The notes under the pieces were generated by a model. It was not told where the DNA came from. It made no database searches and saw only the letters and a list, made by a program, of their open reading frames with translations. Below are positions 12,150 through 17,222 of a stretch of DNA of 36,211 bases, in pieces. Origin of the DNA: Alphaproteobacteria bacterium CG_4_10_14_0_8_um_filter_37_21 (GTDB lineage: Bacteria > Pseudomonadota > Alphaproteobacteria > Paracaedibacterales > UBA11393); NCBI GenBank assembly GCA_002791835.1, contig PFNE01000044.1, forward strand, positions 1-36,211, in the 5' to 3' direction. Position 1 is the stretch's first letter. The number at the start of each line of letters is the position of its first letter. The position numbers were made by a program, and so were the translations under genes.

Positions 12150-12186
12150 AAAAAGCGCTCCTATATTTTAGGTCTATGAAGCGCCT
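12150..12186 (-). terminator. Terminator of dnaJ
   Basis: On the minus strand GCGCT near the dnaJ stop pairs with AGCGC, with an inner CCTA/TAGG helix, followed by TTTTT. The stem overlaps the last codons of dnaJ. Confidence 0.7.
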
Positions 12187-13346
12187 TTTATATCATCAAA
12201 GAAATTTTTAACTTTGGTAAAAAAGCCAGACGACTGGGGGCTATTGCTATTGCCTTTTTCAAGATCTTTAAATTGCGTTAATAAATCTTTTTGTTTTTGA
12301 TTTAAGTGAACGGGGGTCTCTACCTTTATTTCTACAATCAAGTCACCCCTATAAGCGCTTTTAATCGCTGACATGCCCTTATGGCGCAAGCGCAGCTGCG
12401 TTCCACTCTGCGTACCTTCAGGAATGGTTAAAGCGACAGCTTTACTATCAATGGCTGGCAAATCAATACTACCACCCATTGCAGCCGTTACCATTGAAAT
12501 AGGCACTGAACAATATAAGTCTTTTTCTGCACGTTTGAAAAATTTATGTGGTTTAACCGTAATATAAACGTACAAATCACCTTTGCCGCCCCCACGAAGA
12601 CCTGCCTCACCTTCGCCTGTCATGCGAATACGTGTACCATTATCAACGCCAGCAGGAATTTTAACTTCTAGGTTTTTTTGTTGGCGTGTACGCCCTTGGC
12701 CGTGGCATGGTTTACATGGATCAGAAATTGTTTTACCAAGACCGTCACATGTTTGGCAGGTGCGCTCCATTGTAAAAATTCCTTGCTGAAAGTGAACAGC
12801 CCCGTGCCCTTTACATGTTTGACAGTTAATTGTTTTAGAATCTTTAGATCCACCAGATCCCTTGCAAGAACTACATACATCATTTGTCACAAATTGAATT
12901 TTTTCAGACAAACCCTCAAAAGCTTGCTCTAATGTTATTTGTAAATCATACCTAATATCTGAACCACGCAGTTTCTCAGGAGCTGAATTGAAACCACTTT
13001 GACCGCCGCCAAAACCACCAAATCCACGTAACATTTCCTCAAAAATAGAATTGGCATTAAAGTCTCCACCACCTTGATGGAAACCACCAAAACCACCACC
13101 GCGCCCCATACCTGCATTTTGATCAAAAGCAGCATGGCCGTATTGATCGTAAGCGGCACGCTTTTGTTCGTCAGATAAGATTTCATAGGCTTCTGTCATC
13201 GATCTAAATTTATCTTCAGCTACCTTGTCGTTAGGATTACGATCAGGATGATATTTCATTGCATTCTTACGGTATGCTTTTTTAATTTCATCTTTAGATG
13301 CAGTCTTGCTGACATTTAACAATTGATAGAAGTCTTGCTTTGACAT
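12174..13346 (-). CDS. dnaJ: DnaJ, Hsp40 co-chaperone
   Basis: DnaJ delivers unfolded substrates to DnaK and stimulates its ATPase. Domains run in canonical order: J domain (1-70) with the essential HPD in KYHPDRNPND, Gly/Phe-rich region (about 75-120), four zinc-binding CxxCxGxG repeats (CSSCKGSGG, CQTCKGHGA, CQTCDGLGK, CKPCHGQGR, about 155-220), then the two substrate-binding beta domains and C-terminal dimerisation part. At 390 residues it is full length. It lies 102 bases downstream of dnaK with a hairpin in the gap, so dnaJ may be expressed partly from dnaK read-through and partly on its own. Confidence 0.97.
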   Translation of the reverse strand: MSKQDFYQLLNVSKTASKDEIKKAYRKNAMKYHPDRNPNDKVAEDKFRSMTEAYEILSDEQKRAAYDQYGHAAFDQNAGMGRGGGFGGFHQGGGDFNANSIFEEMLRGFGGFGGGQSGFNSAPEKLRGSDIRYDLQITLEQAFEGLSEKIQFVTNDVCSSCKGSGGSKDSKTINCQTCKGHGAVHFQQGIFTMERTCQTCDGLGKTISDPCKPCHGQGRTRQQKNLEVKIPAGVDNGTRIRMTGEGEAGLRGGGKGDLYVYITVKPHKFFKRAEKDLYCSVPISMVTAAMGGSIDLPAIDSKAVALTIPEGTQSGTQLRLRHKGMSAIKSAYRGDLIVEIKVETPVHLNQKQKDLLTQFKDLEKGNSNSPQSSGFFTKVKNFFDDIKGAS

Positions 13347-13448: not shown

Positions 13449-15359
13449 CTAACCTTTTTTCTGTTCATCAAGATCCACATAGTCAGCATCTACTGTATTT
13501 TCATTAGATTGCTTATCGGCTGAAGGTGTATCTTTATCGGCTTGTGCACTCGCTTGTGATGCTTTATACATTGCTTCACCAAGCTTCATAGAAGACTGCA
13601 TTAAGGCATCAAGCTTTTCTTTAATCACATCATGGTCTTCAGATTCTAAAGATTCTTTCAATGTTTTTATATCGTTTTCAATAGCTGTTTTTTCTTCTTC
13701 AGAAATTTTATCACCATTTTCAGATAAACTTTTTTCTGTGCTATGAAGCATAGAATCAGCTTGGTTCTTAACATCAATTAATTCTTTACGTTTTTTATCT
13801 TCTTCTGCGTGTGATTCAGCGTCTTTCACCATCTTTTCAATATCATCATCGGATAGTCCACCAGATGCCTGAATTGTAATATGTTGTTTTTTGTTCGTCG
13901 CCTTATCCATTGCAGACACTTCAACGATTCCATTTGCATCAATATCAAATGTTACTTCAATTTGCGGTGTGCCACGTGGTGCTGGTGGAATTTCGTCTAA
14001 GTTAAACTCACCAAGAGACTTGTTATGCGCTGCAATTTCACGCTCCCCTTGAAAAACTTTAATTGTAACAGCTGGTTGGTTATCATCGGCTGTTGAAAAT
14101 GTTTGTGATTTACGTGTTGGAATTGTTGTATTACGGTCAATTAAACGCGTGAAGACACCGCCTAATGTTTCCAAACCAAGTGATAGTGGAGTCACATCAA
14201 GCAAAACAACATCTTTAACATCACCTTGAAGAACACCACCTTGAATTGCGGCACCAATTGCAACAACTTCATCAGGGTTTACACCACGGTGCGGCTCCTT
14301 ACCAAAAAATGCTTTTACAGTTTCAAAGATTTTTGGCATACGTGTTTGACCACCAACCATAATAACTTCATCAATATCTGATGCCTTAAGACCAGCATCT
14401 TTTAATGCAGCTTCACAAGGTGCAATTGTTCTTTTGATATAGTCTTCTACTAAAGCTTCTAATTTTGCACGTGTGATTTTAACATTTAAATGCTTTGGAC
14501 CAGAGGCATCAGCCGTAATAAAGGGCAGGTTGACTTCTGTCTGCTGTGAAGATGACAGTTCAATTTTTGCTTTTTCCGCTGCTTCTTTTAAACGCTGCAA
14601 AGCTAATTTGTCTTTTAGTAAATCAACACCACTGTCTTTTTTAAATTCAGCTACGATATATTCAATAATGCGCATATCGAAATCTTCACCACCAAGGAAC
14701 GTATCACCGTTTGTAGATTTTACTTCAAAGACGCCGTCCCCAATTTCAAGAACAGAAACATCAAATGTTCCACCACCGAGATCGTAAACAACAATTGTAC
14801 CAGAGGATTTTTTTTCTAAGCCGTATGCAAGCGCAGCTGCAGTTGGTTCGTTAATAATACGTTTAACATCAAGACCTGCAATTTTACCAGCATCTTTTGT
14901 CGCTTGACGTTGCGAATCGTTAAAGTAAGCAGGAACGGTAATCACCGCTTCAGTTACTTTTTGACCTAAGAAAGATTCGGCTGTCTCTTTCATTTTTTGC
15001 AAAATACCGGCACTGATTTGGCTTGGCGATTGTTTTTCGCCGCGCACATCAACCCAGGCGTCGCCATTGTCAGACCTTACAATTTTATAAGGAACAAGAT
15101 CCATATCTTTTTTGGTTAAAGGATCGTCAAAACGACGACCAATCAAGCGCTTAATCGCAAAAAATGTATTTTCTGGATTTGTTACAGCTTGACGCTTTGC
15201 CGGCTGCCCCGCCAATTTTTCACCAGATTCTGTGACAGCAACCATAGAGGGTGTTGTTCTAGCACCTTCTGCATTTTCAATAACGACAGCTTTACCGCCA
15301 TCCATTACAGACACGCAAGAGTTTGTTGTTCCAAGGTCAATACCTATAATTTTACCCAT
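13449..15359 (-). CDS. dnaK: DnaK, Hsp70 chaperone
   Basis: This is the ATP-driven chaperone that folds new and heat-damaged proteins with DnaJ and GrpE. The N-terminal nucleotide-binding domain (about 1-385) has [31 protein letters not shown] and the adenosine motif [12 protein letters not shown]. The substrate-binding domain and helical lid follow, and the tail is acidic ([10 protein letters not shown]). At 636 residues it is full length. A very good ribosome site (AGGAGAT) sits before the ATG, a near-consensus promoter lies at 15431-15459, and a CIRCE-like inverted repeat sits across the predicted transcription start. grpE and hrcA are not in the window. Confidence 0.98.
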
Positions 15360-15402
15360 GAAGATCTCCTAGTTTTTAAATTTATTCTGAGTGCACCTGA
15401 AA

Positions 15403-15429
15403 TTAGCAGTCTGCACACGACTCTGCTAA
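15403..15429 (-). promoter_or_regulatory. CIRCE-like inverted repeat in the dnaK leader
   Basis: The 27-base element has the 9-9-9 arm-spacer-arm layout of CIRCE, the HrcA operator (TTAGCACTC, 9 bases, GAGTGCTAA). On the minus strand the arms are TTAGCAGAG and GACTGCTAA. The right arm matches the consensus at 8 of 9 positions, the left at 6 of 9. Seven outer bases pair perfectly. It overlaps the expected transcription start of the promoter just upstream, the usual place for HrcA repression. Confidence 0.55.
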
Positions 15430-15430
15430 T

Positions 15431-15459
15431 ACTATAACCAATTATTTTTAGACATTCAA
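15431..15459 (-). promoter_or_regulatory. dnaK promoter
   Basis: On the minus strand TTGAAT (15454-15459) and TATAGT (15431-15436) are 17 bases apart, a strong housekeeping-type match. The same site reads CTTGAA with a TTAT block, loosely resembling alphaproteobacterial RpoH promoters, so dual recognition is possible. Confidence 0.7.
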
Positions 15460-15578
15460 GTTATTGTGCATTTTTTTCCTAAAGAAATAGAAAAAAATTC
15501 TCTAATATGCCTAACACAAGGTAAATTCTGGATATTCTTTGCAATTTTATTAAGAATGAAAACATAAATACAATAAGG

Positions 15579-16745
15579 TTAATAACTTTGTTGAAATGTC
15601 ACTTCAATGAGTGTTAAGTCGTCACTTAATGCTAATTTTTCATTTTTGTCATCTAGTTTTTTTTCAACATAGGGAATCACAGGTTGACCATCTAACGTTT
15701 TAAAAAAATGATGAATATCATCATCATCAAAACTAAAACCAAGATCGTCTAAACATTCCCAAAGCAAATCGCTGTAAAGCAATAAAGAAGTATCTTTATC
15801 AAATTTAACAGATCTTTCTGCGTACTTTATCCCTGTCTCAATACCCAGGGGTAAACCAGAACTGTCACCTAATGTTATTTTTTTTGTTTTTTTGTTATAA
15901 AATATGGGAGACGTACTTCCGGCTGCAGCGTAAGTAAACGTGTTATGGCGTATGTCAACAACGCCGTATAAAAATGTGGCAAAATTACCAACTGCAAGCA
16001 GGTTTTTTAGTTTGTTATTTAAGGTTTGCAATAACAAACTGGGTGTAAATTGGTTTTTTTCCTGATCTTTTATTAATGTATGAATACGAAATGTGCTAAG
16101 CGCTGCATGTAATCCTTTGCTGACAAAGTCACAAATCCATACACCAAAACGATGCTCATCTAAGGGTAATATCCCCCATAAATCTCCGCTCAAATATTGG
16201 CACGGTTTAAATAAGTACCCAACTTTTACTTGATATTTTTTTTGAATTTCTGTCAGAACTTTTTTCTGTGGCATTAAAGAGTATTGCAAACTTAAAGCGC
16301 TACGTATGTCACCTTTCATCATGCATTCAAAATTTTTTAATCGTTTCAATTCTTGCGCATTATGAATATGAAAGATCAGCCTAGACTTTAGTTCATTTGC
16401 ACGCACGCAGGGTTCAATATAGTCAGAAATATTATGCATCCATGCTTCTTCTCGTGCTGAATAATTATCACTATACATAACGATTGCAAGCTCTGTTTGA
16501 GAGAAATGTTGACGTATTTGCGCTAACAACTTTATCGCATTTTTACCAGGGTTAACGTCATGCACAATCACAAGATCTGGTCGTTCATCTTGAATCTCGT
16601 CCATTAAATCACCGTCACAGTCTATGCACGTAATATTCATAAAAGACAGATTTGTCAAAATTTTAGAAAGGTTGCAAATATTTGTTTGATGATTGCAAAC
16701 TATTAAAATAGATGCATCCTGTGGCTTTGTTTGCTGGTATGCCAT
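15579..16745 (-). CDS. Receiver-like domain fused to PP2C/SpoIIE (RsbU-type) phosphatase
   Basis: The C-terminal half (about residues 170-388) is a SpoIIE/RsbU-type PP2C serine phosphatase, which dephosphorylates STAS anti-sigma-factor antagonists. Metal-binding positions are seen in LSGDLWG (D188), WICDFVSKGLHAA (D206), LLYSDLLWE and ALSDDLTLIEV (D376). The N-terminal 125 residues follow a response-regulator fold with candidate phospho-acceptor D63 (VIVHDVNPG). However, the acidic pair normally ending strand 1 is replaced (LIVCNHQ) and the conserved Lys before Pro is Glu (DYIEPC), so it may be a pseudo-receiver. The gene follows the STAS gene by 7 bases, so the two probably form one module. 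No switch kinase or anti-sigma gene is adjacent. Confidence 0.87.
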   Translation of the reverse strand: MAYQQTKPQDASILIVCNHQTNICNLSKILTNLSFMNITCIDCDGDLMDEIQDERPDLVIVHDVNPGKNAIKLLAQIRQHFSQTELAIVMYSDNYSAREEAWMHNISDYIEPCVRANELKSRLIFHIHNAQELKRLKNFECMMKGDIRSALSLQYSLMPQKKVLTEIQKKYQVKVGYLFKPCQYLSGDLWGILPLDEHRFGVWICDFVSKGLHAALSTFRIHTLIKDQEKNQFTPSLLLQTLNNKLKNLLAVGNFATFLYGVVDIRHNTFTYAAAGSTSPIFYNKKTKKITLGDSSGLPLGIETGIKYAERSVKFDKDTSLLLYSDLLWECLDDLGFSFDDDDIHHFFKTLDGQPVIPYVEKKLDDKNEKLALSDDLTLIEVTFQQSY

Positions 16746-16752
16746 AATAATA

Positions 16753-17058
16753 CTAATGCTCTATTAGAAAAATTGTATCAAACTTACCCAATTCCAGCAT
16801 TTTTCCAACTTGCCCCTGCGGGCTTTTTATCGTGATTTGCACCTTATGTCTAAAGGCTTTATCACGGGCCATGAGTAACATACCCATCCCAGCAGAATCT
16901 ATAAAATCTAACTCTGATAAATCAATAATACATTGTTGGTTTTCATGTTCCCCAACAGCGTTGGTAATATAATTAAAATTATTATAATCAGTGTAAGTAA
17001 GGCGCCCTTTGATGGTAATATGAAGATTTCCTAGTGTACTATCGATAGCATATTTCAT
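16753..17058 (-). CDS. STAS-domain anti-sigma factor antagonist
   Basis: The 101-residue protein is a single STAS domain of the SpoIIAA/RsbV type. The switch loop is IIDLSELDFIDSAGMGMLLMA, with S55 in DSAG as the residue expected to be phosphorylated by an RsbW/SpoIIAB-like kinase and released by the neighbouring PP2C phosphatase. The start at 17058 is chosen because AAGGGG sits five bases before this ATG; an ATG nine codons upstream lacks such a site. It is the first gene of the pair with the phosphatase. A target in general stress, motility or surface control is possible but not shown by the sequence. Confidence 0.9.
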   Translation of the reverse strand: MKYAIDSTLGNLHITIKGRLTYTDYNNFNYITNAVGEHENQQCIIDLSELDFIDSAGMGMLLMARDKAFRHKVQITIKSPQGQVGKMLELGKFDTIFLIEH

Positions 17059-17222
17059 AGAAACCCCTTGTGATTGTTTATTCATATTGATAGCACATAT
17101 TTGATTTTAACATTATAAAGCTTTACATTTGGTTAATATTTACAAATAAGTTATCAGCTAAATTTAAAATCTGTCATCCAATATTTGACATTTTGTTCAA
17201 ACCAGCATGATACAGATAATTT

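Follow-up and report, generated by a model that had tools for sequence, protein, structure and literature searches.

A predicted variant CIRCE operator of HrcA at the dnaK-dnaJ promoter in the order Holosporales/Paracaedibacterales

The dnaK leader in the stretch of 36,211 nucleotides analysed here (the window) carries a 27-bp element that is very probably a variant-CIRCE operator of HrcA, lying over the dnaK-dnaJ transcription start, through which dnaKJ would be repressed. The decisive evidence for this element is its conservation in the relatives of the source organism, namely, the protist-associated order Holosporales/Paracaedibacterales. The features concerned are the following:

15454 to 15459, minus strand: -35 box TTGAAT, from the sequence; in the RpoH-type reading it is CTTGAA at 15455-15460, and the sigma assignment is ambiguous
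15431 to 15436, minus strand: -10 box TATAGT (TATATT in most relatives), 1 base 5' of the operator, from the sequence and the leaders of relatives
15403 to 15429, minus strand: predicted variant CIRCE operator of dnaK, TTAGCAGAG-tcgtgtgca-GACTGCTAA, from the sequence, its uniqueness in the genome and its conservation in 37 of 37 leaders
15421 to 15429, minus strand: promoter-proximal arm TTAGCAGAG, 6 of 9 to CIRCE, with positions 2-6 invariant and position 1 kept in 36 of 37 leaders
15403 to 15411, minus strand: gene-proximal arm GACTGCTAA, 8 of 9 to CIRCE, with TGCTAA invariant in 37 of 37 leaders
15366 to 15370, minus strand: dnaK ribosome-binding site AGGAG, from the sequence
13449 to 15359, minus strand: dnaK, 636 aa, an open reading frame above the cut-off of TIGR02350 (prok_dnaK)
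12174 to 13346, minus strand: dnaJ, 390 aa, 3' of dnaK and presumed to be in the same operon, an open reading frame above the cut-off of TIGR02349 (DnaJ_bact)

Read on the dnaK strand, the order is CTTGAAT-...-TATAGT-A-TTAGCAGAGtcgtgtgcaGACTGCTAA, followed by 43 bases and then the dnaK ATG, with the element running from window position 15429 down to 15403. The original prediction described a 27-base inverted repeat of 9-9-9 geometry in this leader, and the sequence agrees with it. The arm scores that it gave against the CIRCE consensus, TTAGCACTC-N9-GAGTGCTAA, were reproduced (left arm 6/9, right arm 8/9), which makes 14/18 for the whole, and the promoter that it named, TTGAAT-17-TATAGT, is present, with the element starting 1 base 3' of the -10 box TATAGT and the transcription start itself inferred from the sequence. 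The left arm departs from CIRCE at positions 7-9 and the right arm at position 21, while the outer TTAGCA and TGCTAA are exact. Within the element, TTAGCAG and CTGCTAA form a perfect repeat of 7 bp around a 13-bp loop, and positions 8-9 are non-complementary. In the assembly of 1,266,172 bases the exact pattern TTAGCA-N15-TGCTAA has one match, which is the dnaK site, and there is no match to the backwards control. When one mismatch was allowed, the pattern and the control each had 4 matches per strand; thus, the dnaK site is distinct only as an exact match and a single genome is not decisive. Within the window, 3 sites with up to 2 mismatches were found where 3.6 are expected, which is the chance level, and none but the dnaK site is free of mismatches. 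Directly 5' of dnaK and on the same strand, at 15579-17085 of the window, lie genes for a response regulator-SpoIIE phosphatase and a STAS-domain protein, a pair like RsbU and an anti-anti-sigma factor.

Among 42 genomes of the order, 37 have a readable dnaK leader, and these come from 8 families. The element is present in all 37, always 1-2 bases past the -10 box, with its arms kept over its spacer. Both 6-base outer arms are exact in 36 of them, and in the remaining leader one base differs, at position 1. Columns 2-6 and 22-27 of the aligned leaders reach 2 bits, compared with about 0.1-0.4 bits in the middle of the spacer. Conservation is also seen at positions 7-9 and 19-21, but in a form unlike CIRCE, with G at position 7 in 24 leaders, C in 10, and A in 3. 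The match to CIRCE is 12-15/18 in most relatives. It had also been suggested that the site might be a drifted operator. This idea is not supported, as the variant is conserved in the order and its TTAGCAG half-site recurs before heat-shock genes of other phyla. Outside the order, 12 of 13 outgroup alphaproteobacterial dnaK leaders have nothing resembling the element. The thirteenth outgroup genome (G047) does have a 17/18 CIRCE before dnaK, but it is farther upstream, ahead of a TTGACT/TATATA-like promoter; another 17/18 CIRCE in this genome lies about 35 bp before clpB (L032:1501-1527). When 386 alphaproteobacterial genomes were scanned for the -10 box together with the arms, the combination was found in all 6 members of the order and in none of the 380 others.

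The promoter can be read in two ways. As a sigma-70 promoter, TTGAAT-17-TATAGT scores 9/12 here and 9.1/12 on average in the order. As an RpoH promoter, CTTGAA-16-GTTATAG scores 10/13 here, with CTTGAA exact, and averages 9.7/13 in the order, rising to 11-12/13 in one genus (g6 of family f5), when compared with the Sinorhizobium meliloti (S. meliloti) RpoH1 consensus CTTGAA-N15/16-CCTATAT as quoted in PMC4843759. Since sigma-70 and RpoH fit about equally well, both here and in relatives, consensus scoring was rejected as a means of assigning the promoter class. The clpB leaders were also tried as a yardstick for RpoH and were discarded because they are too varied and show no clear motif. RpoH-family genes are present in 58 of 58 genomes, and most of the genomes listed have two in addition to RpoD. 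These genes, the RpoH1 scores given above, and the departure of the dnaK element from the CIRCE consensus would all suit the explanation that the element is a functionless, decayed CIRCE and that RpoH by itself drives dnaK, as in other alphaproteobacteria. Decay, however, is not expected to leave invariant outer arms in 8 families between unconserved flanks, and we regard this explanation as very unlikely. With the element taken as an HrcA operator, joint control of dnaK by RpoH and HrcA is possible judging from the promoter, and because the promoter fits RpoH too, HrcA could be a minor layer of this control.

An inverted repeat at this place might instead fold into a 5'-terminal hairpin of the dnaK mRNA that affects the stability or translation of this mRNA. 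The element would indeed stand right at the 5' end of the predicted transcript, and nearly all species keep complementarity in its first 6 pairs, but the leader folds no better than shuffled sequences (z = +1.0), 10 of 37 species lack pair 7-21, and pairing is rare at 8-20 and 9-19 even though these positions are conserved. Furthermore, the same arms are found at groESL, clpB, htpG, and hsp20 of other phyla. The hairpin was therefore rejected, and its probability is very small.

What ties the variant to HrcA is found partly in one genus of the order, g8. Three of its species (G030, G035, and G037) have a 17/18 CIRCE at the equivalent dnaK position and in further species a CIRCE-like arm is combined with a TTAGCAG arm before dnaK, which shows that the variant and the CIRCE forms are connected through intermediates. 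Because of these near-canonical sites and the heat-shock neighbours in the scan across bacteria described below, we link the variant to HrcA. The dnaJ gene gives another indication. In two genomes where dnaJ is unlinked from dnaK, a second variant element is situated between accA and dnaJ, 61 bp before dnaJ:

L292:1497-1523 (G006): second variant element before the unlinked dnaJ
L293:1494-1520 (G025): second variant element before the unlinked dnaJ

Two congeners of these species in which dnaJ adjoins dnaK (G013 and G017) have no element before dnaJ. That the unlinked dnaJ genes have their own copy points to HrcA as the reader of the variant. Evidence to the contrary comes from g8, in which dnaJ is also unlinked from dnaK and no element was found at dnaJ in the species checked.

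The source genome has hrcA on contig 18, where it passes the NCBIfam cut-off of the equivalog TIGR00331, and hrcA was found in 54 of the 58 genomes searched. No CIRCE-like site is near hrcA itself in the loci scanned. Altered specificity of HrcA in the order was considered and rejected because the recognition region SPATIRN is common to the order and the outgroup alphaproteobacteria. Taken together, the presence of hrcA, the 37 of 37 leaders, the 0 of 380 other genomes, and the near-canonical CIRCE of the three g8 relatives support the HrcA-type control of dnaK that had been proposed for this leader.

The groES leaders of the order supply the partner site. CIRCE is present in 33 of 33. Its CACTC and GAGTG are invariant, while there is variation at its outermost bases (at position 26, 17 leaders have A, 13 have G, and 3 have T), and GAGTGCTGA is seen in many species. 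Thus, what is fixed in the dnaK sites is the outer TTAGCA/TGCTAA and in the groESL sites the inner CACTC/GAGTG, each being the mirror image of the other. In the congener G001 the groES site is TTATCACTC-N9-GAGTGCTAA. The source assembly, rated 98.7% complete, lacks groES and groEL and contains nothing that corresponds to the congener's groESL region. Since the groES/groEL pair is nearly always essential, this absence is probably an assembly gap, real loss being the alternative. At positions 7/21, 21 of the 30 genomes in which both sites were read have G/C at dnaK and C/G at groES. This difference, C at position 7 of groES and mostly G at dnaK, would be in line with a second regulator, a dimeric repressor other than HrcA that reads TTAGCAG-N13-CTGCTAA at dnaK and leaves HrcA with groESL alone. 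Such a repressor would need to mimic both the geometry and the arms of CIRCE, as the spacing and length are equal to those of CIRCE, and it does not account for the near-canonical CIRCE at the dnaK position of the g8 species or for the TTAGCAG sites that other phyla have before hrcA and groESL, the symmetric TTAGCAGTC-N9-GACTGCTAA included. We consider this repressor unlikely, though less so than the hairpin or decay, and retain HrcA as the protein that would bind at dnaK.

The scan across bacteria was carried out with the pattern TATANNN-TTAGCAG-N13-CTGCTAA over 84,980 species and used no gene information. It returned 95 stretches, compared with a random expectation of about 7-15, which is a rough estimate from base counts. 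Of these stretches, 43 adjoin groES, 17 dnaK, and 6 hrcA; 20 of the remaining ones were checked and 17 of them adjoin htpG, clpB, grpE, hsp20, or the gene for a Clp-N protein. Heat-shock neighbours are therefore present at 83 of the 86 stretches examined, including stretches from Clostridia, Acidobacteria, and Chloroflexi. In these and other groups, symmetric TTAGCAGTC-N9-GACTGCTAA sites stand before groESL, htpG, clpB, hsp20, and hrcA (L162-L256), and they look like an apparent second class of CIRCE. The HrcA proteins at the TTAGCAG-site loci of other phyla mostly have SSATIRN, which is also the form of Bacillus HrcA, where it goes with canonical CIRCE. Two further sites were observed at other genes. 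In an alphaproteobacterium (G051, L035:1501-1527) a 17/18 CIRCE, TTAGCACTG-N9-GAGTGCTAA, is directly upstream of rpoH, and HrcA may there control the heat-shock sigma factor, as has been predicted for Geobacter sulfurreducens. In G024 (L294:1540-1566) a site of the type TTAGCACTA-N9-TGCTGCTAA with exact outer arms is found about 470 bp upstream of an Hsp20-like gene, from which a short ORF separates it.

For the mechanism, we propose that a dimer of the single HrcA of the genome binds the two TTAGCA half-sites just past the -10 box and would thereby block initiation. It is known from other bacteria that HrcA regulation includes a GroEL step. By analogy, heat or folding stress would draw GroEL off HrcA, HrcA would become inactive, and dnaKJ and groESL would be released, while RpoH may act at the same dnaK promoter. 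The two operators probably differ in strength since dnaK keeps only the outer bases and groESL the full inner CACTC/GAGTG. Our guess, from its departure from CIRCE, is that the dnaK operator is the weaker of the two and would be released first. The fuller proposal is that one HrcA serves two distinctly built operators in each cell, an inner-fixed one at groESL and an outer-fixed one with G7 at dnaK, giving an ordered release on top of RpoH, and that TTAGCAGTC-N9-GACTGCTAA forms a wider second class in many phyla; this we put forward tentatively, as somewhat short of an even chance. If the dnaK element is an HrcA operator, then HrcA control includes dnaKJ as well as groESL in an alphaproteobacterial order that keeps RpoH, and one repressor would govern both main chaperone systems. 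The paired dnaK and groESL operators of each genome would also be a natural experiment on which bases of CIRCE are required by HrcA. In addition, judging from the blind scan, a second operator class in many phyla may be overlooked when the canonical consensus is used for searching. A literature search, with subscription papers and regulon databases outside its scope, gave no paper that joins HrcA with Holosporales or CIRCE with GACTGCTAA, and the novelty of a variant operator at dnaK is provisional.

Among known systems, CIRCE has been described at groESL of rhizobia (PMC3989490), and Bradyrhizobium dnaKJ is given as sigma-32 dependent in the title of an article that the same paper cites. The order resembles rhizobia in having a 27-bp 9-9-9 element near the promoter, a single HrcA, and a groESL copy throughout, but differs in that its dnaK has an element of its own with positions 7-9 changed. 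Geobacter and Desulfuromonas have CIRCE at hrcA-grpE-dnaK-dnaJ and RpoH is also present (PMC545781). The likeness is CIRCE at dnaK of a proteobacterium that bears RpoH, whereas their site is the canonical TTAGCACTC-N9-GAGTGCTAA before hrcA of a joint operon; in the source genome hrcA lies apart from dnaKJ, and dnaK has its own variant site. The Bacillus dnaK operon shares an operator at the operon start and HrcA repression with GroEL feedback, which is the arrangement proposed here, but it has canonical arms and no RpoH, and hrcA is inside the operon and autoregulated. The TTAGCAGTC-N9-GACTGCTAA sites of Clostridia, Acidobacteria, and Chloroflexi share G at position 7 in both arms. They are, however, mostly symmetric through position 9 and are mainly at groESL, whereas the dnaK sites of the order are non-complementary at positions 8-9.
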